DNA of 49,191 bases from Acidobacteriota bacterium (GCA_016213695.1 JACQZV010000172.1:1-49191); one strand, 5' to 3'. Numbered from the stretch's first letter, positions 24,527 through 48,831 are shown. The notes: generated by a model not told the origin, from the letters alone. Numbers and translations are program-made.

Positions 24527-25480
24527 TCACGATTTCACCACTTCCGGCGCGCGCGGCAGCGCGAGCAGCTGGCGTGCGTCGTCGGGCGACGCGATCTCGC
24601 GCCCCAGGCTGCGCGCGAGCTGGACGATCCGCTGCACGCATTCGCCCTGCGTCCTCGCCGGTCTGCCCGGCGCGAGCTCCACGTCGTTCTCCAGGCCGGT
24701 CCGCACGTGCCCGCCCCTGGCAATCGCCACCGCCGCCATGTCGAGATGCTTCGGCCCCCTGACGCACACGGTCCAGTGCGTGTTCGGCGGCAGCATCGCC
24801 ACCATCGCCTCGAGCTGCACCGGCGTCGCCGGCACTCCGTAGTAGCGGGTGTAGTTCAGGAAGACCGTGACGCAATAGGGCGGACGCAGCAGGCCCGTCT
24901 CGACGAACGCGAGGAAGTTCGCGACGTCGCCGGTATGGAAGACCTCCACTTCCGGCAGCACGCCCGCCGCGAGGTAGTCGATCCCGTACTGCTTCTGGGC
25001 GTCGGCGGGCACGACCATCCCGCCGTAGTGATGCCCGACGAGGAAGGAGCCGGCCTCCGGCTTCAGCGCGAGCAGCGTCTTGCGGACGGGCGGCGTCATC
25101 GCCGACGCGCCGTAATTGACGATGACCTTCGACTTCGACCTGACCGCCTCGGTGAGGCGCCGCCAGTTCTCGAGATCCGGCTCGTTGAGCACGCTCACGC
25201 CACGCCCCTGCGCGACGTTCCTGCTCGCGCCGCGCAGGTGGACGATCGCGGCGCCGGCGTTGATCCCGTCGAGCGCCGCGGCGGCGTGCGCCTGGACATC
25301 TCCGGCCTCGTACTGCGAGCCCCGCGGCAGCAGCGTGCTCTGGCCGCTTGGTGACAGGGTGATCACCAGTTTCTCGTGCGCCCCGCCCTGCGCGGCCGCG
25401 CCGACGCCGCCCAACCCGACCGCCGCGGCCCTGACGAACTCCCGGCGCGACGGGTTGGGGATGCGGTCACGACGGGTCAT
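24527..25480 (-). CDS. Tat-exported DUF849/BKACE-like protein with altered metal site
   Basis: A 317-residue TIM-barrel protein of the beta-keto-acid cleavage enzyme family (BKACE, DUF849), which normally condenses beta-keto acids with acetyl-CoA. The start at 25480 gives a twin-arginine signal, PSRREFVRAAAVGLGG (residues 10-25); the frame is open to 25627 but unconserved. The usual HxH metal pair (AxxVHxHxR) is here AAIVHLRGAS with His81 kept and Arg83 in the second position. The other ligand Glu264 in GGHVRTGLEND is kept. A periplasmic place without CoA and a missing ligand make the classic reaction doubtful. Confidence 0.78.
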   Translation of the reverse strand: MTRRDRIPNPSRREFVRAAAVGLGGVGAAAQGGAHEKLVITLSPSGQSTLLPRGSQYEAGDVQAHAAAALDGINAGAAIVHLRGASRNVAQGRGVSVLNEPDLENWRRLTEAVRSKSKVIVNYGASAMTPPVRKTLLALKPEAGSFLVGHHYGGMVVPADAQKQYGIDYLAAGVLPEVEVFHTGDVANFLAFVETGLLRPPYCVTVFLNYTRYYGVPATPVQLEAMVAMLPPNTHWTVCVRGPKHLDMAAVAIARGGHVRTGLENDVELAPGRPARTQGECVQRIVQLARSLGREIASPDDARQLLALPRAPEVVKS

Positions 25481-25572
25481 CGATCTGGCCTTTCGCCTCG
25501 CTGAATCCGAAAAACAGGCTCGAACGGCCGGATCATACGCCGAGCCCGGGTGATTAGCGCGCCCCGTTGCGC

Positions 25573-25578
25573 TAGAAT
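25573..25578 (+). promoter_or_regulatory. -10-like element TAGAAT before the third DUF6152 gene
   Basis: TAGAAT within GTTGCGCTAGAATGCCC, 25 bases before the ATG at 25603. It is the likely start of the 25603-30097 operon. The same hexamer in nearly the same context precedes the lectin-like pair. Confidence 0.45.
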
Positions 25579-25602
25579 GCCCGCCACAAAGGGAGAACCG
25601 GC

Positions 25603-26028
25603 ATGACAAAGACACGTGCGACGGCATTCACGGCGGCGGTCGGTCTTCTGATCCTGTCGGGTCCGCTGCTGGCCCACCACGCCAACGCCATCTTCGACGT
25701 CGGCAAGCGGGTCACGGTCACAGGCACGGTCACCGAGTGGTTCTGGGCCAACCCGCATTGCCTCCTGCGGTTCGACGCCAAGGACGACAAGGGCCAGATG
25801 GTGCACTGGGTCGCGGAAACCCAGGCGCCGCCCAACATGATCCCCTTCGGCTGGAGCAAGCTGTCCTTCAAGGCCGGGGATGTCGTGACGCTCACGCTCG
25901 AACCGGTCAAGAGCGGCCAGGCACTCGGACGCATCCTGCAGGCCGTGCTCCCGGATGGCACGACGCTCGTCGCCGGTGCAACGGCCGTCCCTGCCGGAAC
26001 GGCCGGCGGGCCGCCACCCACACGATAG
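25603..26028 (+). CDS. DUF6152 family secreted protein, copy 3
   Basis: A 141-residue exported protein. The signal peptide ends GPLLA and is followed by HHANAIFD; the body has VTGTVTEWFWANPHCLL, MVHWVAETQAPPNM and FKAGDVVTLTL. It is closest to copy 1 (shared WANPH, VHWV, FKAGD). The C-terminal tail is longer and Ala/Gly/Pro-rich. GGGAGA lies upstream of the ATG at 25603. It opens a five-gene plus-strand cluster with a GRW gene 26 bp downstream, just as copy 1 does. Function unknown. Confidence 0.86.
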   Translation: MTKTRATAFTAAVGLLILSGPLLAHHANAIFDVGKRVTVTGTVTEWFWANPHCLLRFDAKDDKGQMVHWVAETQAPPNMIPFGWSKLSFKAGDVVTLTLEPVKSGQALGRILQAVLPDGTTLVAGATAVPAGTAGGPPPTR

Positions 26029-26054
26029 CCGCCAGTCACTGACGGGGACGCACC

Positions 26055-26954
26055 ATGACACACCGAGTTGTCGTTCCGGCGCTTGCCGCGGTCGCACTTG
26101 TGGCGCTGCTGTCCCCTGTGGCGCGCGGTCAGCAGGGGTTCCGGCGCGCGCCCGGAGCCGTGTACGACGTGGATTTCGCAGGCAGGAAGTCGGGGCCCGC
26201 TCCGCGACGCAGCATCTCCGGCATCTGGGAATTCGCCAAAGGCGGCGCCGAGGGGATTCAGGCGGATGGGGTGAAGGCCATGCCGTCGGACGGCAAGCCG
26301 GAACACGAGCTGCCGTTCACGGCCGAAGGGCGGGCGGCTTTCATGGCCAACAAGCCGACCTTTGGCGTCACGCTGGTGCCCTCGGCCTTCACCAACGATC
26401 CGATGCCCGGCTGCGATCCGCAGGGGTTTCCGCGCATCACGCTCCACAACGCCCACACGGAGCAGATCCTCCAGACCACCACGCAGGTGGTGATCCTGTA
26501 TCAGTTCAACAAGAAATGGCGCGTCATCTGGACCGACGGCCGCGCGCTCCCGAAGAATCCGGAAGTGCCCGCGTGGGACATCAAGGACTCCCCCCCGCCT
26601 GAATCCCGCTGGTGGGGGTACTCGGTCGGCCGGTGGGTGGACGACTACACGTTCGTCGGGGAGTCGAATGGCTTCGACGATCGAGCCTGGCTCGACAATG
26701 CCGGCCGTCCGCACAGCGACGCGATGCGCGTGGTGGAGACGTACCACCGTGTCGACGCCGACCACCTGGAGAAGACGATCACGATTGACGATCCGAAGTA
26801 CTACACCAGGCCGTGGGTGGCGCTCGACAAGCTTCCGTACAGACTGCAATCGGCCAGCTTCGAAATTCCCGAACAGGAATGCGTCCCTTCGGAAACGGCG
26901 AAATACGACAAGCTGTTCGGCAACCCGGCTGCCGGCGTCGACAGCGCGCGTTGA
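26055..26954 (+). CDS. Secreted GRW-motif family protein, paralogue C
   Basis: A 299-residue exported protein closest to paralogue A. The signal peptide ends VARGQQ (about residue 27). Blocks: SGIWEFAKGG, CDPQGFPRITL, QILQTTTQVVILYQ, IWTDGRALP, GYSVGRWVDDYTFVG, AWLDNAGRPHSDAM, YHRVDADHLEKTITIDDPKYYTRPW. Relative to the consensus it reads VDDYTFV where others read EGDTLVV, as in paralogue A. A and C therefore form a subgroup, each directly downstream of a DUF6152 gene. Function unknown. Confidence 0.76.
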   Translation: MTHRVVVPALAAVALVALLSPVARGQQGFRRAPGAVYDVDFAGRKSGPAPRRSISGIWEFAKGGAEGIQADGVKAMPSDGKPEHELPFTAEGRAAFMANKPTFGVTLVPSAFTNDPMPGCDPQGFPRITLHNAHTEQILQTTTQVVILYQFNKKWRVIWTDGRALPKNPEVPAWDIKDSPPPESRWWGYSVGRWVDDYTFVGESNGFDDRAWLDNAGRPHSDAMRVVETYHRVDADHLEKTITIDDPKYYTRPWVALDKLPYRLQSASFEIPEQECVPSETAKYDKLFGNPAAGVDSAR

Positions 26955-26965
26955 CGCGCCGCCGC

Positions 26966-28249
26966 ATGCGCCTTGCCGCCGCGCTGGCCGTTCTGTTCGC
27001 GCTCGCCGCACCGGCGTCGGCGCGCGCGGCGACGACCGCCATCAGGTTCGGCACGCTCGTTGACGGGCAGGGGCACGTCTTCGCCAATGCCGTCGTGGTC
27101 GTCGTCGACGATCGCGTGCAGAGCGTCACGAGCGGCGGGCCGATTGCGGGCGGCGCCGAGCTCATCGACCTGTCCCGATACACCGGCATCCCGGGCCTCA
27201 TCGACGCGCACACGCACATCACCTATTACTGGGACGGCACGACGACGCCGCGCAGCGAGCCGCCCCGGCATCCGGCGGTCACGGCCGTCCTCGCGCAGGA
27301 GAACGCGCTGAAGGCGCTCGAGGCGGGCGTCACGACGATTCGCGATCTCAATGCCGCCGGCGGCGTGGACCTGGCCATGCGGGACCTCATCAAGATGGGA
27401 AAGATGATCGGTCCGCGCATGTTCGTCTCCGGAACCACGATTCGCATCACCAGCAGTGCCGGACCGCCTGCGCCGATCGGCCTCATGGCGGACGGCGTCG
27501 ACGGCGTGATCCGCGGCGTGCGCCAGGTGATCGCCTCGGGCGCCGACTGGGTGAAGATGCACGCCTCGACCGGCGGCTTCGACGATCTGAGCCAGACGCA
27601 GACATTCACGTTCGAGGAACTGAAGGCCGGTATCGACGCCGCCCACGCCCTCGGGAAGAAGGTGGCGGTGCACTCCTACGGACCCGCCGGCGCGCGCGAG
27701 GCCGTCCGCGCCGGCGCCGATTCGCTCGAGCACCCCACCGACATGGACGACGAGACCATTGCGGAGATGGTCCGGCGCAGGACGTATTACAGCCCGACGA
27801 TCGATCACAATCAGTACTACGTGGAGAACGCCGACGCGGTCTACCATTTTCCGCCCGGTACGAAGGAGCGGCTCGGCGACTTCATCCGGCGCAATGTGGA
27901 CACGGCGCGGAAGGCGTTCCGCGCCGGCGTGCACATCGTCATGGGGTCCGACGCCGTCTATAACGGCTGGGGATTGAACACGCGCGAGCTCGACTGGTTC
28001 GTGAAGATCGGCATGACGCCGGAGCAGGCACTCGGAGCGGCCACCAGCGAGCCCGCGGCCCTGCTCGGCATGGAGCGCAGCCTGGGCGCCGTGGCGCCCG
28101 GCTTCTTCGCCGACATCGTCGCCGTGGACGGCAACCCGCTCGCCACTATCACCGCGGTGTCGAAGCGGGATAATGTCCGCTGGGTGATGAAGGCCGGCCG
28201 CGTGGTCGTCGACAAGACCAGGAGAATCGACACGAACACCGGACGATGA
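26966..28249 (+). CDS. Exported metal-dependent amidohydrolase (imidazolonepropionase/prolidase-like)
   Basis: A 427-residue amidohydrolase-superfamily enzyme with a signal peptide (to about residue 20, ARAA). Metal-site motifs: DAHTHI, the carbamylated-Lys candidate in VKMHAST, VAVHSYG, LEHPTDMDD and the late Asp in MGSDAVYNGW; the ending GAVAPGFFADIVAVDGNPL is typical. These exported homologues cleave unknown amides, dipeptides or lactones. A TTG at 26951 (TTGA overlap with the previous stop, adding a basic MTRRR) is an alternative start. It sits between GRW genes and its stop is within 18 bp of the next start. Confidence 0.88.
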   Translation: MRLAAALAVLFALAAPASARAATTAIRFGTLVDGQGHVFANAVVVVVDDRVQSVTSGGPIAGGAELIDLSRYTGIPGLIDAHTHITYYWDGTTTPRSEPPRHPAVTAVLAQENALKALEAGVTTIRDLNAAGGVDLAMRDLIKMGKMIGPRMFVSGTTIRITSSAGPPAPIGLMADGVDGVIRGVRQVIASGADWVKMHASTGGFDDLSQTQTFTFEELKAGIDAAHALGKKVAVHSYGPAGAREAVRAGADSLEHPTDMDDETIAEMVRRRTYYSPTIDHNQYYVENADAVYHFPPGTKERLGDFIRRNVDTARKAFRAGVHIVMGSDAVYNGWGLNTRELDWFVKIGMTPEQALGAATSEPAALLGMERSLGAVAPGFFADIVAVDGNPLATITAVSKRDNVRWVMKAGRVVVDKTRRIDTNTGR

Positions 28250-28263
28250 ACAGGGAGGCGCAG

Positions 28264-29247
28264 ATGAGCCGTCGATTGCCCGCTTTGCTCGTATTCGTGC
28301 TGGCGCTCGCGCCGTCGCTGGCTGCCGCGCAGTCGCAGCGCTGGACGCCGCCGCGCACGCCCGACGGACAGCCCGACCTGCAGGGCTTCTGGACCAACAA
28401 CACGTACACGCCCCTGGAGCGGCCGAAGAACGTCACCCAGGAGTTCTTTACGAAAGAGCAGGCCGCTGACGTCGTCAGGCGGGCGGCGGCGGAGGAATCG
28501 GCCCAGACCGAACCGGGCACCGTCGCCGACGTGCACTATGACTTCACGCAGTTCGGGCTGGACCGCAATCAGTCGCCGGCCGCGTCAACTCTTCGCACGT
28601 CGCTCGTCGTCGATCCGGCCGATGGCCGGCTGCCTCCATTGAGCGCGGAAGGACAGCGGCGGGCGGCGGCGCGCGCCGAGGCGCTCAAGGGCGTCGGTCG
28701 ATGGGACTCGGTCCAGACCAACGAGCTCGACGACCGCTGCATGATTTTTGCGGGCGCCGGTCCCCCGATGCTTCCGCAGACCTACAACAGCAATTACCAG
28801 ATCGTGCAGGCGCCTGGCTACGTGATGATCCTGTTCGAGATGGCGCACGACTTCCGGGTCGTCCCGCTCGACGGCCGGCCGCACGTGCCGCCGGAGATCC
28901 GGCAGTGGATCGGCGACTCACGCGGCCGCTGGGACGGCGACACGCTCGTCGTGGAGACCACGAACTTCAACGGCAGGAATCCGCTGCGCGGGTCGAGCGA
29001 GCACATGCGGGTCGTCGAGCGGTTCACGCGCGTGAACGCCGACACGATTCGGTATCAGTTCACCATCGACGATCAGGCGACGTGGACGCGGCCGTGGTCG
29101 GCGGAGCTGCTCATGCGCAAGACGATCGGGCCGCTCTTCGAGCACGCCTGCCACGAGGGGAATTACGGTCTCTACAACACGCTCGTGGGCGCCCGCCTCG
29201 AGGACAAGAAAGCGGCCGAAGCGGCCGCCGCCAGGGGCGCCAAGTAG
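28264..29247 (+). CDS. Secreted GRW-motif family protein, paralogue D
   Basis: A 327-residue exported member. I chose ATG 28264 because GGGAGG lies six bases upstream; an ATG at 28246 overlaps the previous stop (ATGA). The signal peptide ends LAAAQ. Blocks: GQPDLQGFWTNN, DRCMIFAGAGPPMLPQ, YQIVQAPGYVMILFE, VPLDGRPHVPP, GDSRGRWDGDTLVVETTNF, RVVERFTRVNADTIRYQFTIDDQATWTRPW. It lacks the usual TWLDxxG block, replaced by RNPLRGSSEH. D, F and G share PDLQGxW and GxSRGRWxGxTLVV and form a second subgroup. Confidence 0.77.
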   Translation: MSRRLPALLVFVLALAPSLAAAQSQRWTPPRTPDGQPDLQGFWTNNTYTPLERPKNVTQEFFTKEQAADVVRRAAAEESAQTEPGTVADVHYDFTQFGLDRNQSPAASTLRTSLVVDPADGRLPPLSAEGQRRAAARAEALKGVGRWDSVQTNELDDRCMIFAGAGPPMLPQTYNSNYQIVQAPGYVMILFEMAHDFRVVPLDGRPHVPPEIRQWIGDSRGRWDGDTLVVETTNFNGRNPLRGSSEHMRVVERFTRVNADTIRYQFTIDDQATWTRPWSAELLMRKTIGPLFEHACHEGNYGLYNTLVGARLEDKKAAEAAAARGAK

Positions 29248-29272
29248 GGCACGCGGAACGGAGGGTAGTGGA

Positions 29273-30097
29273 ATGCGGATGCTGCTCGCGGTCGTGGCCG
29301 CCGGAGTGCTGTCAGCCCCGTTGTTCGCGCAGGGCATCGTGTCCGGACAGGGCGGCGGCGAGGACGTCGGTGCGCTCGGTCCGGTCAACGCCCTGGGACA
29401 GGAGATCCGTCGCGCGGCGCCCCCGACCGATCCCCCGCCCCGGCTGCCCGACGGCACGATCAACCTTGGCGACGGCCTCTGGATTGGCGGCGGCCCCGGC
29501 GACATGGCATCGGCGCTCCCCAAGGGCGAATCGCTGCCGCTGCTGCCGTGGGGAGAGGCGCTCCTGGACGATCGCGTCAAGCGGCCCGCCGACGATCCGT
29601 ATTACTGGTGCCTGCCGATGGGCGTGCCGCGCGTGACGCCGTATCCGTGGCGGTTCGTGCAGAACTACACGCACGCGAAGCCGACGCACCTCTTCATCCT
29701 GCACGAGGCGATCATCCACACCTACCGCCAGATCTTCATGGACGGCCGCGCGCACCCGCCCGACCTCGACCCCACCTGGTTCGGCCATTCCATCGGCCGG
29801 TGGGAGGGCGACACGCTCGTCATCGACACGGTCGGCTACAACGACAAGTTCTGGTTCGACCGCAAAGGCACGCCGCACACCGAGCAGCTCCACACGGTCG
29901 AGCGGTGGACGCGCGTCACCCGGGGCACGCTCGTCAACGCGATCACCATCGACGACCCGGGCGCGTACTCCAGACCGTTTGTGGCGACGTTCAACGCGCG
30001 GCTCGCGCCAGCCGGGGATGAGCTGATGGAGAACTTCTGCCAGGAGAACAACCAGTTCGGCACCGCCGGAGGCCATACGCATCCGTTCGCACGCTGA
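29273..30097 (+). CDS. Secreted GRW-motif family protein, paralogue E
   Basis: A 274-residue exported member (signal to about residue 18, LFAQ). It has a Gly/Pro-rich N-terminal stretch without the usual G-x-W block, then YWCLPMGVPRVTPY, RFVQNYTHAKPTHLFILHE, IFMDGRAHPPDLDP, GHSIGRWEGDTLVIDTVG, FWFDRKGTPHTEQL, ERWTRVTRGTLVNAITIDDPGAYSRPF. It is closest to paralogue B. GGAGGG precedes the ATG. It is the last intact gene of the 25603-30097 cluster. Function unknown. Confidence 0.77.
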   Translation: MRMLLAVVAAGVLSAPLFAQGIVSGQGGGEDVGALGPVNALGQEIRRAAPPTDPPPRLPDGTINLGDGLWIGGGPGDMASALPKGESLPLLPWGEALLDDRVKRPADDPYYWCLPMGVPRVTPYPWRFVQNYTHAKPTHLFILHEAIIHTYRQIFMDGRAHPPDLDPTWFGHSIGRWEGDTLVIDTVGYNDKFWFDRKGTPHTEQLHTVERWTRVTRGTLVNAITIDDPGAYSRPFVATFNARLAPAGDELMENFCQENNQFGTAGGHTHPFAR

Positions 30098-30133
30098 TCA
30101 CCAGACATTCAATCGTTCCAGCGGGAGGCCGTC

Positions 30134-30485: not shown

Positions 30486-31964
30486 TCACCCGCGCTGCAG
30501 CAGCGGCCGAAGCGTCCGGATGTCTGTGACCGTCTCGACCGCGAGCACGGTGTCGATCAGCTTCTGCGCGGTCGCCGCCCCGAGCACCGGGCCGATGAGA
30601 TCGCGGGCCTTGTCCACCACCTCGCCGCGCGGCATCGGGTTGCGCACGGTGCCCCGCACCGCCTCCACGCGGTCGGAGAGCTGCGCCCCGTCGTTCAGCG
30701 CGATCTCGACGACCGCCACGCGCGCCGGCAGGAGCCGCGCGAGCGAGGCGTCGGGCACGTAGGTCACCTTGCTGCGCTGGCGGAGGACGGCCAGGTCCTG
30801 CATGCGCGGCTTGTCGTGCGCCGCCTTGAACGAGGCGGTCCTGTCGAGGAGCATCACCGCCACCATGTGCTGCAGGCAGATGTCCGGCAGCTCGCGGTTG
30901 TCCACGACGGCGCCAACAGTCGGCGCGAGGCGCACGACGACGGCCTTCACGTCGCCGGCGTCGAAGGGACGCTTCCGCCGGAGATTTTCAATGGCGTCGA
31001 GCGGCGCCTGAATCGGGGTGCCGACGGTCCACTTCTTGATATCGGTGTTGACCACTTCGTACCGCTCGCCAAGGGCGTCCACGAGCACGGACGGCGAGCC
31101 TTTCGGCGCGTTGACCTGAAAGAAATTGTCCTCGCCCGAGAACACGTCGTCCACGCCGGTCCACCCGGAGCGCACGAGCAGCGCGGCGGTCACGCCGTTG
31201 CGGGCCGGCATCCCGCCGAAGACGAATCCCTTTTCGATGTGGTCGGTGTCGCGGCCCCACACCGCGTAGCCGGCCGCCTGCTGCGTCGCATAGTCGAGGA
31301 GCCATCGCATCTGCTGCGCATTGAACCCGGCGACACAGCCCGCGGCCGCCGACGATCCGAAGTTCCCCGCGAAGGCGTGCGTGCTGCGGCGGCTCTCGTC
31401 TCGAAACGTCATGCCGCCGAGCGCCATCGTCAGGCGGCAGCCGACGTCGTAGCCGAGCGCCACCGCGCGCAGATAGCGCTCGCCGGTCGCGCCGAGATCC
31501 TCGCCGAGCGCCAGCGCCGCCGGCACGATCGAGGCGCCCGGATGCGACTGCGACGGCCCGTGCGAGTCGTCTGTTTCGTCGGAATGCGCGAGGACGCCGT
31601 TGACGAGCGCGGCGTCGATCGGTCCGGTCAGGACGCTCGAACCGACCACGGTGGCCACCGCGCGGCCCGCCTGCGCCCGCGCCATGGTCAGCGCGGCCCG
31701 GCCCGCCGGGAGCTCCGACCCCGACACCATCGCGGCGAGCGTGTCGAGGATGTGGTGCTTCGCCTTCTCGACGACCTCCGGCGGCAGCGCGCGATCCTTC
31801 GCGGCAGCCATGTACAGGCTGAGCGTGGCCATCACGGGGCTCACGGCCGACGTCGCGGCCTGCGCCCGCAGCCGGATCGACGGCAGCGCGGCCGCGCAGA
31901 GGGCGAGGGCGCCACGGCCGAGCAGGCCGCGGCGGGACAACCGGGCGCGAGGAAGCGGTGACAT
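30486..31964 (-). CDS. Tat-exported MmgE/PrpD family protein
   Basis: A 492-residue member of the MmgE/PrpD (2-methylcitrate dehydratase-like) family. After a twin-arginine signal (ARLSRRGLLGRGALALCAAA, about residues 7-26) the helical domain shows HHILDTLAAMVSGSELPAG, VNGVLAHSDETDDSHGPSQSHPGA and AVALGYDVGCRL, matching the family core. Family members isomerise or dehydrate small acids in the cytoplasm; export here is unusual. It follows the alpha/beta hydrolase by 30 bp on the same strand. Confidence 0.86.
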   Translation of the reverse strand: MSPLPRARLSRRGLLGRGALALCAAALPSIRLRAQAATSAVSPVMATLSLYMAAAKDRALPPEVVEKAKHHILDTLAAMVSGSELPAGRAALTMARAQAGRAVATVVGSSVLTGPIDAALVNGVLAHSDETDDSHGPSQSHPGASIVPAALALGEDLGATGERYLRAVALGYDVGCRLTMALGGMTFRDESRRSTHAFAGNFGSSAAAGCVAGFNAQQMRWLLDYATQQAAGYAVWGRDTDHIEKGFVFGGMPARNGVTAALLVRSGWTGVDDVFSGEDNFFQVNAPKGSPSVLVDALGERYEVVNTDIKKWTVGTPIQAPLDAIENLRRKRPFDAGDVKAVVVRLAPTVGAVVDNRELPDICLQHMVAVMLLDRTASFKAAHDKPRMQDLAVLRQRSKVTYVPDASLARLLPARVAVVEIALNDGAQLSDRVEAVRGTVRNPMPRGEVVDKARDLIGPVLGAATAQKLIDTVLAVETVTDIRTLRPLLQRG

Positions 31965-31994: not shown

Positions 31995-33341
31995 TCAGTC
32001 GAAATAGCCCGACTCGATGTAGCGCAGCCAGACACTGCCAACCACCACGATCGCATCCTGCGTGAAGAGGTAGTGGTGCCACCCCTGGATGCGGCCGACG
32101 CGGTACGTCTTCGCATAGGGCTCCATGACCCTCCGGTTGGCATCGACGGTTGACGGCGGCAGCGCCTCGTCTTCGGTGCCGTTCAGATCGAGCACCGGCA
32201 CCGCCTTGAGCGCCGCCGGCGGATAGCTCGGCTCGAACATCGCCTGCATGAAGGCGGCGAGCCCTCCGGCGCGGTCGGCCGCCGGCAGAAACCCCGACTG
32301 CCACAGGCGCACGGCGTGCTCGGTGAGCGCGCCGGCGCCGAACTGCATCGCGGCGTCCTCCGTGCTCTTGAAGCGCGGCGACTTCAGCGCCATCGTCCAC
32401 CACCGCGCGCGGGTGCCGGCGTCGACGTGCTTCGTGTAGACCTCGAAGTCGTCCAGGCCGCGCTCGCGGACGCGCAGCGCCATCCGCTCGTACGGGTCGT
32501 TGATGGCGCCGCCGAGCGCGCGGTTGTTCACATACGCCAGGCCGGTGGAACTCGTGCCCCAGCCGAGATACCCGTCCGGCGTGTACTGCTTCGCCAGCGG
32601 ATAGAGACTCGCGCCGCCGGTTGACATCCCCCAGAACAGCACGAACGCGCCGCGCCGATTCGGAATCGCCTTCTCCAGCGCGAGGCGGTACCCCTCGAGA
32701 AACACCCGCGGCGTCGCCGCGAGCATCTGCGCCTCCAGATCGGTGCCCGTCTTCGGAAAACGGTAGATGGCGCTCATGCTGGGCGAGGTGCCGGCCGCCG
32801 CGCCGGAACGCCGCACCTCGTAGTCGCCGGCCGACCAGCGCTCGCGCCGGGTGCGGCTGAAGATCGGCATGCGCTCGCCAATCGGCACGTCTTCCCACGA
32901 GCCGTCACCCGTGGGCGCCAGAAAATTCCAGCGCCCGACGCGCGTGAGCGCGACGAAGGTGATGCCGCGCCTGGCGAGCCAGACGCCGGGACCGTCCTTC
33001 CCTTCGACGGTCCAGACGAAGTCCATGCCGTACTCGCTGCCAGGCTCCGCGCCGACGACCACGATCCGCCGGCCGTTCCGCAGCCGGGGCCGGTCCGGCG
33101 TCAGCGTGACGACGACCTGCGTGAAGCGCTGGCCGTGGGCCGTGAAATCGATGAAGTCGGTCCGCTGCGTATAGGCACTGGTCTCGGGATAGTCGCGTCC
33201 GGCGAGGATGGCGGCGATCGCCTCCCGGCCCAGCGTGCCGTTATCGGGCGGAAGGTCCCAGGCGCCCGCCGGAACAGCAACGAGCAGCAGGAGAAAAAGA
33301 ACGGGCGGGCCGTACGGGCCCGCCCGGCGGAGGTGGAACAC
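31995..33341 (-). CDS. Exported alpha/beta-hydrolase-fold protein
   Basis: A 448-residue secreted hydrolase. The nucleophile elbow is GMSTGG (about residue 236), the acid is probably Asp in VLDLNGTEDEALPP, and the base His is in GWHHYLF near the C-terminus. The signal peptide core is VLFLLLLVAVPAGAW. The GTG at 33341 lies three bases after the FAH stop and has no Shine-Dalgarno. The DNA encoding residues 6-22 is a near-perfect intrinsic terminator (see 33289-33326), so this start, or the gene's expression, is odd. The substrate is unknown. Confidence 0.72.
   Translation of the reverse strand: MFHLRRAGPYGPPVLFLLLLVAVPAGAWDLPPDNGTLGREAIAAILAGRDYPETSAYTQRTDFIDFTAHGQRFTQVVVTLTPDRPRLRNGRRIVVVGAEPGSEYGMDFVWTVEGKDGPGVWLARRGITFVALTRVGRWNFLAPTGDGSWEDVPIGERMPIFSRTRRERWSAGDYEVRRSGAAAGTSPSMSAIYRFPKTGTDLEAQMLAATPRVFLEGYRLALEKAIPNRRGAFVLFWGMSTGGASLYPLAKQYTPDGYLGWGTSSTGLAYVNNRALGGAINDPYERMALRVRERGLDDFEVYTKHVDAGTRARWWTMALKSPRFKSTEDAAMQFGAGALTEHAVRLWQSGFLPAADRAGGLAAFMQAMFEPSYPPAALKAVPVLDLNGTEDEALPPSTVDANRRVMEPYAKTYRVGRIQGWHHYLFTQDAIVVVGSVWLRYIESGYFD
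33289..33326 (-). terminator. Intrinsic terminator overlapping the signal-peptide codons
   Basis: Read on the minus strand, CGGGCGGGCC and GGCCCGCCCG form a perfect 10-bp stem around CGTAC, followed at once by TTCTTTTTCTCC. This is a textbook Rho-independent terminator, 18 bases after the FAH stop. It also encodes residues of the next protein's signal peptide. It could end the FAH transcript or attenuate the downstream genes. Confidence 0.78.
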
Positions 33342-33344
33342 GTG

Positions 33345-34469: not shown

Positions 34470-34498
34470 AGTCACCTCCATCAAGAAACGAAGAGCGA

Positions 34499-35996: not shown

Positions 35997-36038
35997 GCCC
36001 CTATTCTTGTAGCGGCGCGGCACCCTTGTCCACCCGGC

Positions 36039-39199: not shown

Positions 39200-39207
39200 A
39201 CACGAAC

Positions 39208-40821: not shown

Positions 40822-40844
40822 CCGAGGTTTACCTCCATATGCAT
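40816..40844. promoter_or_regulatory. Possible operator between SDR and AraC-type genes
   Basis: Two ATGCAT palindromes (40816-40821 and 40839-40844) are spaced 23 bp apart, about two helical turns, with the inverted repeat GAGGT-TT-ACCTC (40824-40835) between them. The first ATGCAT contains the SDR start codon. The spacing suits a dimeric regulator such as the divergent AraC-type protein. This is inference only. Confidence 0.3.
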
Positions 40845-40863
40845 TTGTACGCGGGGAGCGGCA

Positions 40864-41664
40864 GTGAGAGATTGGAAGAAACGGACATCGCGGCTTGTCG
40901 CTGACATCCGCGTTCGCAGATCCAAACGTCCCGGCGAGGTGAAACGGGTCGAGTTGCTGCCGGACGGAACGTTAGGTCTGTTGTTTCAGATCACCGATGG
41001 CAGCGTGGCGCGGCCCGGCTCACGCGACGGCAATCTGTATGTCGTGGGCACGCGCACGACGGCCTTGTACAAAACGACGCAGGCGGTCCCGCTCGCCGTG
41101 ATGCTCCGATTCCGTCCGGGTACGGCATCCGCAATTCTCGGCGTGCCGGCACAGCAATTGACCGATCGCATCGTTGGTCTGGAGGACCTGTGGGGTGCGG
41201 ATGGCAGACACCTGCGCCGGACCATGCTGTCGGTCGCGGAGATCCCGGACATGATCGCCCTGCTGCAGGCCACGATCGAGGCTCGGGCAATTCGCGCGGG
41301 CCAGTCACCGTCGCTGCACCTCGCGCAACAGGCAGTGTCCCTGATCACGCGGCGGCCGACACCGATATCGGTTGCCGATCTGGCCGCACGCCTTGAGGTC
41401 ACGACCAGGCATCTTCGACGGGTCTTCACAACGGAGGTAGGAATCGGGCCGAAGGAGTTTCTGCGCGTCATCCGGTTTCAACGCGCCGCCGGCGCGGCTG
41501 CGCCGCAGAACTGGGCCAGTGTTGCTGCGGAGGCCGGTTACTACGACCAGGCCCACATGATCCGCGACTTCCGGGCGCTGACGGGACGTACCCCGTCGCG
41601 GCTGCAGGCCGCAGCACACGTTAGGAGGCACAAGTCACAAGGCACAACCATGGTGGTGCCCTGA
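40864..41664 (+). CDS. AraC-family transcriptional regulator (DUF6597-type N-terminus)
   Basis: A 266-residue regulator. The N-terminal half (VELLPDGTLGLLFQITDG, VPLAVMLRFRPGTASAILGVPAQQLTDRIVGLEDLWG) matches the DUF6597 sensor found in a subset of AraC proteins. The C-terminal double helix-turn-helix covers about residues 160-250: ISVADLAARLEVTTRHLRRVFTTEVGIGPKEFLRVIRFQ and AAEAGYYDQAHMIRDFRALTGRTP. The GTG at 40864 has GGGGAG upstream; the frame is open earlier but unconserved. Its likely target is the divergent SDR gene. Confidence 0.86.
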   Translation: MRDWKKRTSRLVADIRVRRSKRPGEVKRVELLPDGTLGLLFQITDGSVARPGSRDGNLYVVGTRTTALYKTTQAVPLAVMLRFRPGTASAILGVPAQQLTDRIVGLEDLWGADGRHLRRTMLSVAEIPDMIALLQATIEARAIRAGQSPSLHLAQQAVSLITRRPTPISVADLAARLEVTTRHLRRVFTTEVGIGPKEFLRVIRFQRAAGAAAPQNWASVAAEAGYYDQAHMIRDFRALTGRTPSRLQAAAHVRRHKSQGTTMVVP

Positions 41665-41683: not shown

Positions 41684-43267
41684 CTAGTTCGTCCCCGTCT
41701 TGCCGACAAACCGCAGGAAGTCGCTCCAGGGCACCGCCCGGCCGTGCAGCCCGGCAATGGTCGCGACATCCAGCTTGTAGTTCATCACGTTGTTATACAG
41801 GTTCAGCGCCGCGGGCGGAGGCGTCGCCGGCATCTGCGCGTCCGGCGCCGGCGGCGTGTAGACGTCGGCCTCGACGAGGATCTTCTCCTTCGGCAGATAC
41901 GCCATCAGCATCCCCTCGGCGTGCGGACTCCCCTGCACGTAGTAGACGTCGAGGTTCCGCGTGCCGTCGCTGATCGTGCCGCGCATGTCGACCGTTTCGA
42001 GCTGGTAGCCTTCGGCGAACTCGGTCGGCGGATAGAGCGACAGGCGATCCGGCTCCAGCGTCCGCGCCGCATAGGTCAGCACTTCCTGCTTGTAGAATTC
42101 GCGGTTGCTGTGGTGCGTGACGATCGTCGCCCCCTCGTGGAACGCCGTCCGGATGCCGCCCAGGTGGTCGAAGTGGTTGTGCGAGTTCACCACGTAGCGG
42201 ATCGGCTTGTTCGGAATCACCTTGTACACCGCCTCGATGACCGCCAGCGTCCGCCGCTCGTCCTGCGGCGCCTCGATGAGCGCCGTGAAGTCACGGAACT
42301 CCACGGCCATGCTGTGGTGCGAGCCGCCGGTGAGGTAGTAGACGCCGTCGCCCATCTTCGTCGTCTCGACGCGCACCGGCGGGACCGTGGCGGTGCGGGC
42401 CGCCTCGGGCACCGGCGTCGCGGCGCACTGATTGACCATGACGTCCTTCACCGTGAACGTGATCCGGTTGTGCCCGCCGCTGTAGTTGGGCGGCTGCGTC
42501 TCATCGTCCCAGTCCTGGTGATGATGGAAGTTGCCGGGGAACTTGATGCCGCTGACGTCGCGCCACTGGCTGAATTCCCCCTCGTAGTTCATGTCGCCGC
42601 GCACCGGGTTCGGCACCCACGTCTGCACGCGCTCGACGAGGTTCTGCTCGTTGATCGTGCCGTTCACGCGGTACTTGCCGAGCGCGGTGAACGAGATGAT
42701 GCGCAGCCGGCGCATCGGCACGGAGCTCAGCCCGCCGAGCGCGCCGCTCTCCCACCGCGTGATGAGCACGGGGTTGGCGCCGGGCGCCATGGCCGCCTTG
42801 ACGAAGCCGTGCGGGTTCAGCCACATGTCGAGCTGCCGCATTTCGGCCGCCGCGGGAGCCGGCACCGGCATGGTGTTCGCGCCCTGCAGGGTCCACGCCG
42901 CGCGATCGACCACGAACTCGACGACGCGCTGTTCGCCCTGAATCGGAATGCCCCCACCGCCGCGGGGCGGGTAGCTGCCCTGCCGGATCACGCGCTCTTC
43001 CCGAGACGACTTCTCCTCGAAGTTGAGCGTCCGCGAGTAATTCGCCAGCTCGACGCGCGGCCAGTCGTCTCTGATGTCGTAGGCCTGCCCCACCATGCCG
43101 ACGTAGCCCGCGCCGTTGTACGTCACGCATTTCAGGGTATTCGTGCCCTGCGCCTGCGCCACGGCCTGCAACACCGCCTGGGCGGTCTGCGCCTGCGCCG
43201 ACGGCCTCGCCACCATCGCGGTGACCAGCACCAGGGCTCCGCACAGCGCCGTGATATATCTCGCCAT
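41684..43267 (-). CDS. Exported metallo-beta-lactamase-fold hydrolase
   Basis: A 527-residue secreted protein. A signal peptide (ending SAQAQ, about residue 27) and a long N-terminal beta-rich part (about 30-300) precede the metallo-beta-lactamase domain: VVNSHNHFDHLGG (HxHxDH metal site), IVTHHSNREF, VYYVQGSPHAEGM and LHGRAVPW. The N-terminal half has no name I can give. The size suggests a two-domain secreted hydrolase rather than a lactamase. GGAGG precedes the ATG at 43267. It is 20 bp downstream of the cyclase gene on the same strand. Confidence 0.85.
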   Translation of the reverse strand: MARYITALCGALVLVTAMVARPSAQAQTAQAVLQAVAQAQGTNTLKCVTYNGAGYVGMVGQAYDIRDDWPRVELANYSRTLNFEEKSSREERVIRQGSYPPRGGGGIPIQGEQRVVEFVVDRAAWTLQGANTMPVPAPAAAEMRQLDMWLNPHGFVKAAMAPGANPVLITRWESGALGGLSSVPMRRLRIISFTALGKYRVNGTINEQNLVERVQTWVPNPVRGDMNYEGEFSQWRDVSGIKFPGNFHHHQDWDDETQPPNYSGGHNRITFTVKDVMVNQCAATPVPEAARTATVPPVRVETTKMGDGVYYLTGGSHHSMAVEFRDFTALIEAPQDERRTLAVIEAVYKVIPNKPIRYVVNSHNHFDHLGGIRTAFHEGATIVTHHSNREFYKQEVLTYAARTLEPDRLSLYPPTEFAEGYQLETVDMRGTISDGTRNLDVYYVQGSPHAEGMLMAYLPKEKILVEADVYTPPAPDAQMPATPPPAALNLYNNVMNYKLDVATIAGLHGRAVPWSDFLRFVGKTGTN

Positions 43268-43287
43268 ACTGCCTCCGTTCGTGTGTC

Positions 43288-44328
43288 TCAGAAAATTGCC
43301 AGCGGGTTGAGCGGCGATCCCGTTCCGCCTTCGACAGGCAGCGGTGCAAACGTGATCAGGAATTCGTACCGCTTCAGCTTGCGCGCGATCCCGACCGCCT
43401 GTTCGAGATCGAGGCACTCGACGATGTTGATGCCCATCCAGTTGAGAACGGCGACGTGGATCGGATTGCGCATCCCCTCCCAGCCGGGCCGCGGATTCCA
43501 GTCGATGTTGAAATCATGGCCGATGAACGCGGGCATCCGCTCGTGCATCCAGGGAATCGTGTCGGCATAATAGCCCGCCACTGGCGCCGCCGCCGGCCCC
43601 TCGGCCGCGCGCCGCTTCCACCGCCCGATGTACAGCAGCACGACGTCGCCCGGGCCGGCCTTCACGCCCGACTTCTTCTCCCATGCTTCGAGGTCGGCGC
43701 GGCGGATCGGCGTGTTCGGATCGGCCCACTCGACGCCCTTGAGCTGCGCGATGTCGTACAGGACGGCGCGCGTGGCGATGCCGTCCTTCCAGTTCATGAT
43801 GCCCCCCTGCTTGCACCCTTCCTCGTTGCTCAGGTTCCCCTTGACGGGCACGCCGTTGTACATCAGCCCGTTCTCGAAGAAGTGGCACCAGCTGTCCATG
43901 TGCGCCACGGTCAGGCCGTGGTAGCTGACCGAGTAGTTGTCGGTCGTGCCGCCGTCGGTGATGTTATTCGTCGTGCGGCGGAACAGCCCGTTCGGATTGA
44001 CGTCGGCCGCCGCCACCTGCGGTTCGGCGTGCGCCAGCGACACGACGGTGCCGGTCCGCACCAGCCGGACGGCGTTCAGCACCTTCTGCGGCGTGATCAG
44101 GTTCGACGTGCCCTTGTTGTCGGCGGTGCCCCACTTGCCCCACGTCTTGAACTCCTTCCGCCACTGCTCGTACTGGGCACGCATCGCCGCCGTGTCGGCG
44201 GGCGGAGCCGGCGCGGGCGCCTGCGCCGGCGCCCCGCCGGCGGGAGCCTGGGCGCGCAGCTGGAAGCCGCCGGCCACGCCGGCGAGCACCAGGGCCATTC
44301 CGAGAACCATCGACTTCACACGCGGCAT
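43288..44328 (-). CDS. Exported cyclase (kynurenine-formamidase-like) family protein
   Basis: A 346-residue member of the metal-dependent cyclase family, whose members hydrolyse cyclic or formyl amides and lactones. After a signal peptide (to about residue 27, LRAQ) and an Ala/Pro-rich linker come WGKWGTADNKGTSNLITP, a family start, then the metal motif LTVAHMDSWCHFF (HxDxxxH), VLYDIAQLKGVEW, LEAWEKKSGVKAGPGDVVLLYIG and IGHDFNIDW. ATG 44328 follows GGAGG; the upstream open frame crosses a repeat and is not coding. TAGAAT (44441-44446, minus) may be its promoter. Confidence 0.87.
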   Translation of the reverse strand: MPRVKSMVLGMALVLAGVAGGFQLRAQAPAGGAPAQAPAPAPPADTAAMRAQYEQWRKEFKTWGKWGTADNKGTSNLITPQKVLNAVRLVRTGTVVSLAHAEPQVAAADVNPNGLFRRTTNNITDGGTTDNYSVSYHGLTVAHMDSWCHFFENGLMYNGVPVKGNLSNEEGCKQGGIMNWKDGIATRAVLYDIAQLKGVEWADPNTPIRRADLEAWEKKSGVKAGPGDVVLLYIGRWKRRAAEGPAAAPVAGYYADTIPWMHERMPAFIGHDFNIDWNPRPGWEGMRNPIHVAVLNWMGINIVECLDLEQAVGIARKLKRYEFLITFAPLPVEGGTGSPLNPLAIF

Positions 44329-44342
44329 ATGCGACCTCCAGA

Positions 44343-44427
44343 CAGTGGGCGGTGGGCAGTGGGCAGTGGGCGGTGGGCTCTCAGCAGCGATGTCGACTGC
44401 CCGCTGTCCACTGCCGACTGCCCACTC
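44343..44427. repeat. Imperfect inverted repeat of AGTGGGC units
   Basis: Bases 44343-44379 are direct iterations of CAGTGGG/CGGTGGG heptamers. Bases 44395-44427 hold the complementary units (ACTGCCC, CACTGCC), so the stretch can fold into a long imperfect hairpin. It lies in the leader of the cyclase gene, between its TAGAAT and its start. It resembles dispersed intergenic repeats more than a terminator. Confidence 0.6.
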
Positions 44428-44443
44428 TAAAGCGGCGCCAATT

Positions 44444-44956: not shown

Positions 44957-44992
44957 AGGAGGTCCTCCTGCGCTGACTTATGATCGACCTCG

Positions 44993-46309
44993 ATGCGCAC
45001 CCACCACCTTGCCGCTCTCCTGCTGCTGCTCGCACCCGCCTTCCATGCCGCGCCGCTGCGCGGACAGACCGCGGCGGTCGCGCAGCGGTCGATCGATGAA
45101 CTCTATCCGGAATTGGCGGCGCTGTACCAGGACCTGCACCGGAACCCGGAGCTGGCGTTTCAGGAAACCCGCACGGCCGGCGCGCTGGCGGCGCGTCTCC
45201 GGGCGCTCGGGTACGAGGTGGCCACGGGCGTCGGAGGCACCGGCATCGTGGCGCTCCTCCGCAACGGCCAGGGCCCCACCGTCATGCTGCGAACCGAGCT
45301 CGACGCGCTGCCGGTGCAGGAAAAGACCGGCGTTCCGTTCGCGAGCACGGTGACGACAAAGACCGCCGCGGGCCAGGTGGTGCCGGTCATGCACGCGTGC
45401 GGACACGACCTGCACATGACCGCCTGGGCCGGGACGGCGGCCTGGATGGCGGGCCACCGGCCGCAGTGGAAGGGCACGCTGATGCTCGTCGGACAGCCCG
45501 CGGAAGAAACCGTCAGCGGCGCGGCGGCCATGCTCACGGACGGCCTGTTCACGCGCTTTCCCAGACCGGACGCCGTGCTCGGCGTGCACGACGATGACAC
45601 GCTGCCGGCCGGAACGGTGGGGTACCACGCCGGCTTCTTCCGCGCGTCGATGAGCGCGCCGGTCATTACCTTGTTCGGCCGCGGGGGCCACGGAGCGGTG
45701 CCGCAGAACACGATCGATCCGGTGGTGATGGCCGCCCGCACGGTGATGAGCCTGCAGACGATCGTCGCGCGCGAGACCAATCCGCTCGAGCCGCTTGTCG
45801 TGACCATCGGATCGATCCACGGCGGCACGCAGGGCAACATCATTCCCGACCAGGTCAGGATGGAGCTGAGCGTCCGCACCTTCAGCGAGGACGTGCGCGC
45901 GCGGACCGTGGCGTCGATCGCGCGCATGGCGAAGGCCGAGGCGCTCGCCGCGGGCGCGCCGCGCGAGCCGCTCGTCGAGTTCGCGAACGCCGGCATCGGT
46001 CCGGTGTTCAACGATCCGGCGCTGACGGGCAGGCTGGCCTCGGCGCTCCGCACCGCGATGGGGGCGGAGCGTGTCGTCGAGATGCCCGCCAAAATGACGT
46101 CCGAGGATTTTGCGGAGTACGGCCGGGCGGGCGTGCCCGCGGTGCTGCTGCATGTCGGCGCCGTCAACCCCGCGCGCCTCGCCGAGGCGAAGCGCACCGG
46201 CGTCCCGGTGCCGGCGCCGCATTCGCCCGAGTGGCTCCCCGATCTGGAACCGACGCTGAAGGGCGCCATCCAGGCCGAGACGGCGGCCCTGCTCGATATG
46301 TTGCGCTGA
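44993..46309 (+). CDS. Exported M20-family amidohydrolase (M20D-like)
   Basis: A 438-residue metallo-amidohydrolase with a signal peptide (to about residue 25, LRGQ). Members cleave N-acyl amino acids or aminobenzoyl-glutamate-type amides. Motifs: HRNPELAFQE, LRTELDALPV, the metal motif HACGHDLHM (about residues 133-141), GQPAEE with the catalytic Glu, the dimer-domain GRGGHGAVPQNTIDP, and SEDFAEYGRAGVP. The ATG at 44993 has no Shine-Dalgarno; TATGAT (44979-44984) ends eight bases earlier, so the mRNA may be leaderless. Confidence 0.9.
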   Translation: MRTHHLAALLLLLAPAFHAAPLRGQTAAVAQRSIDELYPELAALYQDLHRNPELAFQETRTAGALAARLRALGYEVATGVGGTGIVALLRNGQGPTVMLRTELDALPVQEKTGVPFASTVTTKTAAGQVVPVMHACGHDLHMTAWAGTAAWMAGHRPQWKGTLMLVGQPAEETVSGAAAMLTDGLFTRFPRPDAVLGVHDDDTLPAGTVGYHAGFFRASMSAPVITLFGRGGHGAVPQNTIDPVVMAARTVMSLQTIVARETNPLEPLVVTIGSIHGGTQGNIIPDQVRMELSVRTFSEDVRARTVASIARMAKAEALAAGAPREPLVEFANAGIGPVFNDPALTGRLASALRTAMGAERVVEMPAKMTSEDFAEYGRAGVPAVLLHVGAVNPARLAEAKRTGVPVPAPHSPEWLPDLEPTLKGAIQAETAALLDMLR

Positions 46310-46319
46310 GGTTGAGGTC

Positions 46320-47093
46320 CTACCGGGTTCCGACGACCCTCGGGTGCTGTTTGAAGAAGGCAACAATCCGATCGGAGGTGTCGCGCGGATAGACGTGCCC
46401 ACCCGGGTGGATCCAGGCCATCACGGGGTTCGGCGTCTCCTGCCCGTAGATCGTGCAGCCATCTCCGCACTTCGCCGAGCTGTCCCGCACGCCGTTGACG
46501 CCCACCGCCGTGACGATGGCGGCCTTCTGATCGGCGAAGGCGACCTGCTCGTCGGCCGCGCCCGCGACGTGGAAAAGGGGACGCGGCTGCTTCGGCTGCA
46601 CGGACGGACGGAGACGGCCTGCCACGGCCGCGTACGCGGCAAACACCGTCGGGCGCTCGGCCCACAGCAGATAGGTGAACATCGCGCCGTTGGAGAACCC
46701 GGTGGCGTAGATCCGGTCGGCGTCCACGGCGTACTTGCCGCGAGCCCAGGCGAGCGCCGCGTCCACGAGCTTCAGATCGCGGTCGCTGTTCTGGCCGCGC
46801 TCCACCTGCCATCCGGCCAGCCCCCGATCCTCGAGTCCCTGGAAGTACACGACGACGGCCTCGGGCCAGGCGCGATGCAGGAGCGTGAACTGGAAGTTCT
46901 GCGCGACGTCACCGCGGCCGTGAAAGGCAAAGATGACCGGCACCCTGCCCTCGGCCGACGCCGCCGCACGCGCGTACACGATCGCGGTGCGCGCGACGCC
47001 GTCGACGGGGCAGACCACTTCTTCGGCCAAGGCGGCGCGCCCCCACAACAGGAGCGCGCAGGCGACGGCCAGCGTGGAGATCCTACGGCTCAT
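46320..47093 (-). CDS. Secreted polyhydroxybutyrate-depolymerase/feruloyl-esterase-like hydrolase (LpqC type)
   Basis: A 257-residue exported esterase. The signal peptide ends AALA (about residue 23). The oxyanion segment is FAFHGRGD, the nucleophile elbow ATGFSNGAMF (Ser134), the acid is probably Asp in VAGAADEQVAF, and the base His is in IHPGGHVYP. CGDGC suggests a disulphide. These enzymes act on hydroxyalkanoate or feruloyl esters; which one is undecided. The start overlaps the end of the H1-like gene by 11 bp. Confidence 0.87.
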   Translation of the reverse strand: MSRRISTLAVACALLLWGRAALAEEVVCPVDGVARTAIVYARAAASAEGRVPVIFAFHGRGDVAQNFQFTLLHRAWPEAVVVYFQGLEDRGLAGWQVERGQNSDRDLKLVDAALAWARGKYAVDADRIYATGFSNGAMFTYLLWAERPTVFAAYAAVAGRLRPSVQPKQPRPLFHVAGAADEQVAFADQKAAIVTAVGVNGVRDSSAKCGDGCTIYGQETPNPVMAWIHPGGHVYPRDTSDRIVAFFKQHPRVVGTR

Positions 47094-47481
47094 CGATGTC
47101 GCTGCCGGGGTCCAGGTCGTCCTCGTCCGACAGGTACCCCTGACCGGTATCCCCTCCCCAGCCGGTCGACATCGGCTCGGTGCCGAACATGTCGCCCTGG
47201 TCGCCCAGGCCCATCAGCGGCTCGGGGGCCAGAGCCGCCGCGGGCGCCCGCGCCGGGAGCCGTCGCGCGGGCTTGCGCGGCGCAGCCTTCCGCGGCGCGG
47301 CCTTACGCGGCGCGGCCTTGCGCGGCGCCGGCTTCCGGCTGCGCGTCGCCTTCCGCGCTCGCGCGGGCTTGCGGGCGGCTTTGCGGGCGGCCTTCTTCTT
47401 CGTTCCCGTCCGCGACGCCGCACGCGTCGCCGCGCGCTTCGGCGCCTTGCGTTTCCTCTTCGCGCTCTTCTTCGGGCTCAT
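47083..47481 (-). CDS. Histone H1-like Lys/Arg/Ala-rich protein with acidic tail
   Basis: A 132-residue DNA-binding-type protein. Residues 1-80 are Lys/Arg/Ala/Pro-rich (SPKKSAKRKRKAPKRAA, then PRKAA repeats), like bacterial H1 homologues that condense DNA. The last 45 residues switch to an acidic tail ending SDEDDLDPGSDIDEP, which could shield the basic part. The DNA has four tandem 15-bp units (47272-47331) encoding the repeats. The ATG at 47481 follows GGAG. It overlaps the esterase gene by 11 bp. Confidence 0.75.
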   Translation of the reverse strand: MSPKKSAKRKRKAPKRAATRAASRTGTKKKAARKAARKPARARKATRSRKPAPRKAAPRKAAPRKAAPRKPARRLPARAPAAALAPEPLMGLGDQGDMFGTEPMSTGWGGDTGQGYLSDEDDLDPGSDIDEP

Positions 47482-47511
47482 CGTGTTGTCTCCTCAACGG
47501 GTCAGAACAGC

Positions 47512-48831
47512 CTACCGCGTCGCCGCCGCCGGGCCCATGAACTTTGCCCGCAGGCCGGCCCGATCGACCGCCGCGCCGCGCATATACACGGCGTTGATGC
47601 GGCGGGTGTTCGCGATGTCATCGAGCGGATTCGCATCGAGCACAACGAAGTCGGCGCTCTTGCCCGCCGCGACCGTGCCCAGATTGTCCAGCTTCATCAG
47701 CTCCGCGGAATTGCGCGTGGCCGCGACCAGCACCTGGGCTGGCGTCATGCCCGAGCGAACCATGTCGGCCATTTCGAGGTGCATGCCATAGGGCGTGTTG
47801 CCGTCGGTGCCGGCGGCAATCTTCACGCCCGCCGCGGCGAGCTTGGCCAGATTCCGCGCCTGGATACCGAACATCTTCTGCGCCGCCGGGTCGGGCTTGG
47901 ACGCCTCCGCCTGCAGCTTCTGCAGCTCGGCGGCCGGCACCGTGTCGGCGGCGAGGCTGAGATCGACGGGCACGCCCGGGCTCGGCAGGTTGGGCACGAG
48001 GATGATCTCGGGACGCGCCGTGATCAGCTTCACGAACTCCTCGTCGATGTCGCGGTCGCGGACGCCGTGCGCGAACGCGTCGAGGCCGGCCTTGATCAGC
48101 CCTTTGCCGTCCACGAGCTCGAAGATGTGCGCGGTCGCACGCAGGCCGTTCTTGTGCGCCTCGTCGATGACCGCGCCGTACAGCTCGGGCGTGAGCTTCT
48201 TGTACTTGTCGTCGCGATCGTCAACCCAGATCTTGATGATGTCGACCTTCCGCTTGGCGTTGTCCTGAACCGCCGCGCGGGCTTCGGCGTCGGTCGTGAC
48301 CCAGATCGGCACTTCCGTGCGTCCCGGCTCCGGCGCCGTGATGCCGCGCCCCGCCGTCAGGAACCGCGCGGTGTTCGGCATGGTCGCGCTCTCGGTCCGA
48401 ACCTGGTACGGCACGTCGCCCTGATCCTGTCCCATGCTGAAGGCCGCGACGACGCCGTAATAGGCGCGGCGCTGCAGATCCTCGACGAGCGTCTCGCGCA
48501 TCTGCGAGCGCAGATGCACGTGGGCGTCCAGCAGGGCCGGGATCACGGTCTTGCCAGCCAGGTCGACCCGGGCGGCGCCTTCCGGTACCTGCACCTGGCC
48601 GCTCGGACCAACCTCGGCGAACTGCGATTCGCGGACGACGATCGTAGCGTTCTCGATCGGGGCGCTCCCGTCGCCGACGATGACCCGTGCCCCTTCGAAC
48701 ACGGTGACATTGGCCGCCGCCGGCGCCTGCTCACTCGCCGGCCGGCTGCACGCCGCGAGGCCGGACACGCTGGCCAGCAGCAGCCCCACGACAATGATCC
48801 TCGGACGACATGCCATCTGCATCAGCCTCAT
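47512..48831 (-). CDS. Lipoprotein amidohydrolase
   Basis: A 439-residue amidohydrolase-superfamily enzyme. The ATG at 48831 opens a signal with lipobox LAAC (about residue 28), so it is probably anchored to a membrane. Metal-site motifs: LLDAHVHLR, carbamylated-Lys candidate in DIIKIWVDD, ATAHIFE, FAHGVRD and the Asp in AAGTDGNTPYG; the ending LGTVAAGKSADFVVLDANPL is typical. It is related to the enzyme at 26966 but distinct. GGAGAGG precedes the start; an upstream in-frame start at 48861 is unlikely. Substrate unknown. Confidence 0.88.
   Translation of the reverse strand: MRLMQMACRPRIIVVGLLLASVSGLAACSRPASEQAPAAANVTVFEGARVIVGDGSAPIENATIVVRESQFAEVGPSGQVQVPEGAARVDLAGKTVIPALLDAHVHLRSQMRETLVEDLQRRAYYGVVAAFSMGQDQGDVPYQVRTESATMPNTARFLTAGRGITAPEPGRTEVPIWVTTDAEARAAVQDNAKRKVDIIKIWVDDRDDKYKKLTPELYGAVIDEAHKNGLRATAHIFELVDGKGLIKAGLDAFAHGVRDRDIDEEFVKLITARPEIILVPNLPSPGVPVDLSLAADTVPAAELQKLQAEASKPDPAAQKMFGIQARNLAKLAAAGVKIAAGTDGNTPYGMHLEMADMVRSGMTPAQVLVAATRNSAELMKLDNLGTVAAGKSADFVVLDANPLDDIANTRRINAVYMRGAAVDRAGLRAKFMGPAAATR

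Follow-up and report, generated by a model that had tools for sequence, protein, structure and literature searches.

Described enzyme families and gene clusters

The BKACE family (DUF849, PF05853), represented by the 3-keto-5-aminohexanoate cleavage enzyme Kce (PDB 2y7d), has zinc ligands comprising a His-x-His motif and a glutamate and uses acetyl-CoA, and BsfD displays a further non-canonical chemistry within the family (PMC12871164). Other described relatives of the proteins considered here are HpcE/HpaG, the L-2,4-diketo-3-deoxyrhamnonate hydrolase (8gsr) and acylpyruvase of the FAH superfamily, iminodisuccinate epimerase (2hp0) and cis-aconitate decarboxylase (6r6u, 12vt) of the MmgE/PrpD family, and the putative cyclase family (PF04199; 5ibz), with cytoplasmic members in Rhodococcus, Rhizobium and Streptomyces. 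Export is common among amidohydrolases and SMP-30 proteins. Many unclassified signal-bearing proteins have been recorded in Acidobacteriota in a secretome study (PMC11495043), and the literature searched contained nothing on exported BKACE, exported PrpD or the function of DUF6152. The polysaccharide utilisation locus of Bacteroidota resembles the system described below in being a cluster of exported hydrolases, and TonB-type receptors were found here beside related genes elsewhere. In contrast to such loci, the window (the whole stretch of 49,191 nucleotides analysed) lacks glycan enzymes, SusD and, among its genes, a TonB receptor, and no transport gene was identified in it.

Genomic setting and gene content

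The window is contig C130 of the genome of a soil-type Acidobacteriota bacterium (GCA_016213695.1; 3.75 Mb, 203 contigs; GC 68%). Gene calling used a codon-usage script, and names were assigned from Pfam and NCBIfam. All the families named in a sequence-only reading of the region were found, namely BKACE/DUF849, MmgE/PrpD, FAA_hydrolase, Cyclase, Peptidase_M20, two Amidohydro_1, Lactamase_B, DUF6351 and an esterase (Table 1). Two SMP-30 proteins, which that reading had placed in the same interval, are present but outside it. A tandem pair of similar, DUF1554-like exported proteins is located at 22991-24510. ARAGORN called a tRNA-Ser (cga) at 34944-35035, on the opposite strand inside the TIG-protein gene; the call is possibly false.

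Table 1. Features of the island and their positions in the window.
Feature	Position	Strand	Basis or remark
DUF849/BKACE TIM-barrel, Tat signal, degenerate zinc site	24527..25480	-	Pfam, PDB matches, alignment, G028 orthologue
DUF6152, exported	25603..26028	+	
TRPW copy 1 (300-aa exported family, no Pfam or NCBIfam model)	26055..26954	+	
Amidohydrolase (Amidohydro_1), Sec signal	26966..28249	+	Pfam, G028 orthologue
TRPW copy 2, exported	28246..29247	+	G028 orthologue
TRPW copy 3, exported	29273..30097	+	
MmgE/PrpD, Tat signal	30486..31964	-	Pfam, alignment, tree, G028 orthologue
HYP32, exported, no known family	31995..33341	-	Motifs
FAH-family hydrolase, signal peptide, exported FAH clade	33345..34481	-	Pfam, alignment, tree, G028 orthologue
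TIG-like protein, secreted	34515..36023	-	
DUF6351 (tannase-like), signal peptide	36070..38214	+	
TRPW copy 4	38234..39199	-	
TRPW copy 5	39208..40008	-	AF2 model, pLDDT 84
SDR oxidoreductase, NAD(P)-type, no credible signal	40099..40821	-	
AraC-type regulator, cytoplasmic	40803..41664	+	
Metallo-beta-lactamase-fold protein (MBL), two-part, Sec signal	41684..43267	-	Pfam Lactamase_B
Cyclase-family metal hydrolase, Sec signal	43288..44331	-	Pfam Cyclase, G028 orthologue
M20 amidohydrolase/peptidase, Sec signal	44993..46309	+	Peptidase_M20
PHB-depolymerase-type esterase, secreted	46320..47093	-	G028 orthologue
Amidohydrolase lipoprotein (Amidohydro_1)	47512..48831	-	G028 orthologue
SMP-30 proteins, two	11169-12188; 17711-18709		Both before 24.5 kb

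Export signals

Signals were assessed with a home-made scorer, with 3.4% false positives on internal segments and a cut-off of 11 for counting, in genes of at least 100 aa within 24.5-48.9 kb. A signal was present in 19 of the 21 genes scored. The proportion in contigs sampled from the same genome was 92/228 (Fisher p = 9e-6 against the island), or 63/191, about a third, when two contigs picked for holding island paralogues were omitted; the scorer takes N-terminal membrane anchors as signals, so this background is overestimated. The SDR, the AraC regulator and a DinB protein of the interval have no credible signal.

The nearest relative used for comparison, G028, is apparently Acidobacteria bacterium RIFCSPLOWO2_12_FULL_68_19, judging by the shared DUF849 neighbourhood. 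The kind of signal was kept in all nine orthologue pairs between the window and G028, and identity was 30-68% in the signal versus 65-84% in the mature part (n = 9); the G028 orthologue of HYP32 scores 9.8, just under the counting cut-off. The mature parts of the seven pairs tested had dN/dS values of 0.15-0.33, corresponding to purifying selection. Signals that are kept and yet diverge faster than the mature protein argue against misread starts. The latter explanation, in which the signals are artefacts of start choice and the proteins are cytoplasmic, draws on the uncertainty of some starts, such as that of FAH, where TTG, ATG and GTG codons lie near 34475-34484. However, the sole internal ATG of FAH (34406) showed no conservation in the orthologue comparison, so a downstream start is unsupported, distant PrpD proteins keep twin-arginine motifs, and a good Shine-Dalgarno-like sequence precedes the signal starts of the cyclase, MBL and AHyd2. 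Misread starts as the source of the signals were rejected on the orthologue comparison, and an artefact of this kind is extremely improbable. Judged by sequence, export of the island enzymes is close to certain, and the signals read from the sequence at the outset are real.

The same reading regarded the families concerned as normally cytoplasmic, which is not supported for all of them. M20 homologues across the phylum bear a signal in 23 of 30 loci, and exported M20 is ordinary in Acidobacteriota; the exported FAH described below differs in this respect.

DUF849

The DUF849 protein matches PF05853 with 153 bits (cut-off 24.8) and is the only BKACE of its genome. Among the genomes compared, G028 alone yielded an orthologue, which shares both the twin-arginine signal and the altered site. 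Tat-DUF849 was thus seen in two genomes and is apparently rare; when named genomes were scanned with DUF849, one locus was obtained among the matches listed. Like Kce, the protein is a TIM-barrel and keeps the first zinc histidine H81, Arg260 and Glu264. It differs from Kce in being Tat-exported and in its active site: in both orthologues the zinc motif is HLR instead of the family HLH, with Arg83 in place of the second zinc histidine, and the His-x-His motif is therefore absent; the STGG loop near the active site is lost through a three-residue deletion (VNY---GAS), ED is replaced by EN and TGAE by SGQ. With the zinc histidine and the STGG loop lost, along with further conserved residues, acetyl-CoA-type keto-acid cleavage is unlikely, as judged from these residues. 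Acetyl-CoA is not expected outside the cytoplasm. Periplasmic keto-acid cleavage by DUF849 is contradicted by the active site and was rejected. A cis-epoxysuccinate hydrolase among the PDB matches represents another chemistry in the family.

FAH and cyclase

The FAH protein contains the catalytic domain of the superfamily with the active-site motifs DFECEF, HHDVSDR, FLKSP and VGKNHDTFGP, which, by alignment, provide the metal ExE...D set and the catalytic Lys. It differs from HpcE/HpaG, 8gsr and acylpyruvase in the signal and in an N-terminal part of ~180 residues common to exported relatives. In a quick tree, exported FAH formed one clade apart from cytoplasmic FAH (24 rows, several acidobacterial families, SH-aLRT 98), with a signal-less Streptomyces FAH as its neighbour, and the export trait changed once on the tree, against a mean of 12 after shuffling. 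The cyclase carries the metal motif HxDxxxH as AHMDSWCHF and shares AHMDSWCH and an N-terminal WGKWG/WGRWG with cytoplasmic members of PF04199. Unlike the latter, the cyclases of Acidobacteriota have a Sec, Tat or lipoprotein signal, and that of Novosphingobium a Sec signal; within the subfamily, such signals were found in 26 of 30 loci.

The genes for PrpD, HYP32 and FAH are packed in the window with gaps of ~30 and 3 bp. In G028, HYP32, FAH, cyclase, esterase, amidohydrolase and enolase genes lie together, with FAH adjoining the cyclase, and amidohydrolase-TRPW2, PrpD and DUF849-MBL are found elsewhere. In genomes of a distant family (f49), exported FAH, lipoprotein cyclase and MBL lie within 6-16 kb, and FAH adjoins a TonB-type outer-membrane protein. 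A paralogous island of the window's own genome has FAH beside a CarboxypepD_reg protein, together with DUF6152, TRPW, MBL and SMP-30 genes. Streptomyces sp. NBC_01237 has an aromatic-degradation-like operon in which FAH and cyclase, both unsignalled, are adjacent (L152 7965-9910) and are followed by genes for a flavin monooxygenase, an amidohydrolase, a VOC protein, a second FAH, an SDR and CoA-transferase subunits; the neighbours were named from their sequences because the record is unannotated there. The exported cyclase of Novosphingobium is located between likely TonB receptors, near an unsignalled BKACE. Within Acidobacteriota, FAH and cyclase were seen to be linked in no more than two lineages, and the two genes lie on separate contigs in several genomes.

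MmgE/PrpD

Both family domains, N-terminal PF03972 and C-terminal PF19305, exceed their cut-offs in the PrpD protein, as in iminodisuccinate epimerase and cis-aconitate decarboxylase. Alignment showed that it keeps the equivalents of H103, H159, K207 and K272, which are the catalytic His and Lys residues in cis-aconitate decarboxylase; it differs from 2hp0, 6r6u and 12vt in having a Tat signal, Glu for D93 and Ser for T97. Tat-PrpD was found in the window, in G028, in two genomes of a distant, possibly Terriglobia-like family (f17), as a second copy in the window's own genome, and on plasmids of Caballeronia and Sphingobium; no Tat signal was found in a 46% relative from Pacificitalea. A quick tree, in which three proteins were labelled as exported on visual inspection because of twin-arginine motifs missed by the scorer, divided exported PrpD into two clades, each mixing acidobacterial and proteobacterial members. 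Two exported PrpD lie close together in f17 and in Caballeronia, and the f17 operon encodes a Tat alpha/beta hydrolase, a Tat PrpD, a Tat bicupin and a Tat PrpD (L124 5764-11242 and L167). The Sphingobium Tat-PrpD has carboxylesterases, a TonB receptor and a PQQ dehydrogenase as neighbours. Its RefSeq start lies 76 residues downstream of the Tat signal (L154 8025), so annotation may hide such exported enzymes.

The second Tat-PrpD of the window's genome (L131) adjoins genes reading as pyrimidine or hydantoin breakdown. In a PrpD paralogue of G028, the Tat region is broken by an in-frame TGA (L163 near 7430), and an exported cyclase lies ~4 kb away.

Multicopy families and HYP32

TRPW, an exported protein of 300 aa, matches no Pfam or NCBIfam model and is encoded at least 21 times in the genome, frequently next to DUF6152; its window copies include 10161-11078, 18722-19459, 26055-30097 and 38234-40008. 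DUF6152 is present in at least 38 copies and the two-part MBL protein in at least 13. TRPW was found in 11 of 119 genomes and DUF6152 in 10 of the 119, all of them TRPW carriers. The co-occurrence of both families with exported cyclase and FAH is strong, with p-values that ignore phylogeny. Compared with the PDB, the predicted TRPW fold had no match reaching E 0.001, and the nearest PDB folds were fatty-acid-binding-type barrels with a low TM-score. HYP32, found in only two of the genomes compared, contains the motifs GMSTG, NGTxDE and HH, which hint weakly at an alpha/beta hydrolase; its fold was assigned from motifs only, the structure model being unusable (pLDDT 35).

Possible role of the island

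It is likely, judging by linkage and co-distribution, that the island enzymes share a catabolic role. DUF6351, the PHB-type esterase and possibly HYP32, together with the amidohydrolases and MBL, would release or open esters, lactones and cyclic amides. Exported FAH and cyclase might then hydrolyse diketo or ring-fission-type acids, as their unsignalled relatives probably do in the aromatic-degradation-like operon. Tat-PrpD could dehydrate, decarboxylate or epimerise a polycarboxylic acid, DUF849 would act as a repurposed barrel rather than a CoA-dependent keto-acid cleavage enzyme, and the products would be imported, possibly via TonB-type receptors of the sort found beside related genes. The exported enzymes need at most a metal and would thus be able to work outside the cytoplasm; the nucleotide-dependent SDR, lacking a signal, stays inside, which fits extracytoplasmic work by cofactor-free or metal-only enzymes. 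This explanation as a whole, in which the genome has several catabolic islands working outside the cytoplasm and this is one of them, is the most likely, at about even odds. As to the joint extracytoplasmic pathway proposed earlier, export is well supported and a shared function is backed by linkage and co-distribution, but no substrate emerged from the sequence.

The enzymes may also be exported without forming a pathway, as duplicated paralogous hydrolases gathered in accessory islands and acting independently on mixed soil organic matter. This is a serious possibility, falling somewhat short of probable: the same families occur in many copies across contigs, several other contigs of the genome match the island in signal richness, M20 export is general in the phylum, and gene order differs between G000 and G028. 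As very many proteins of this genome are exported, a general habit may account in part for the co-location. Against independent action, FAH and cyclase are paired in three distant settings, in one of them without signals, and the PrpD, HYP32 and FAH genes are packed in the manner of an operon. Extracellular detoxification or signal quenching directed at lactones, antibiotics or cyclic amides, instead of growth on carbon, would accord with the lactonase or amidase activities generally known in the MBL-fold, amidohydrolase, cyclase and SMP-30 families. It seems quite improbable, because no role of this kind is known for FAH and PrpD and the genes are linked to TonB-type receptors and to the Streptomyces catabolic operon.

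Returning to catabolism, exported relatives adjoin TonB-type receptors or CarboxypepD_reg proteins in other loci. A broader proposal is rather doubtful: several scattered acidobacterial lineages would have in common an undescribed system for breaking down non-sugar small molecules outside the cytoplasm, analogous to the polysaccharide utilisation loci and combining exported FAH, cyclase and PrpD, repurposed Tat-DUF849, amplified DUF6152/TRPW modules, MBL and TonB-type receptors.

FAH and PrpD belong to exported branches of their families, and some of the exported branches represented in the island were not found described in the literature searched. FAH, PrpD and DUF849 are usually taken to be cytoplasmic, and their reactions are accordingly assigned to the cell interior in metabolic models and annotation. 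DUF6152 and TRPW, which are co-distributed, multi-copy and without described function, are testable partners. The results suggest that part of the bacterium's breakdown of small organic molecules takes place outside the cytoplasm; if so, part of soil carbon turnover would be extracytoplasmic as well, and goods shared between species would arise.
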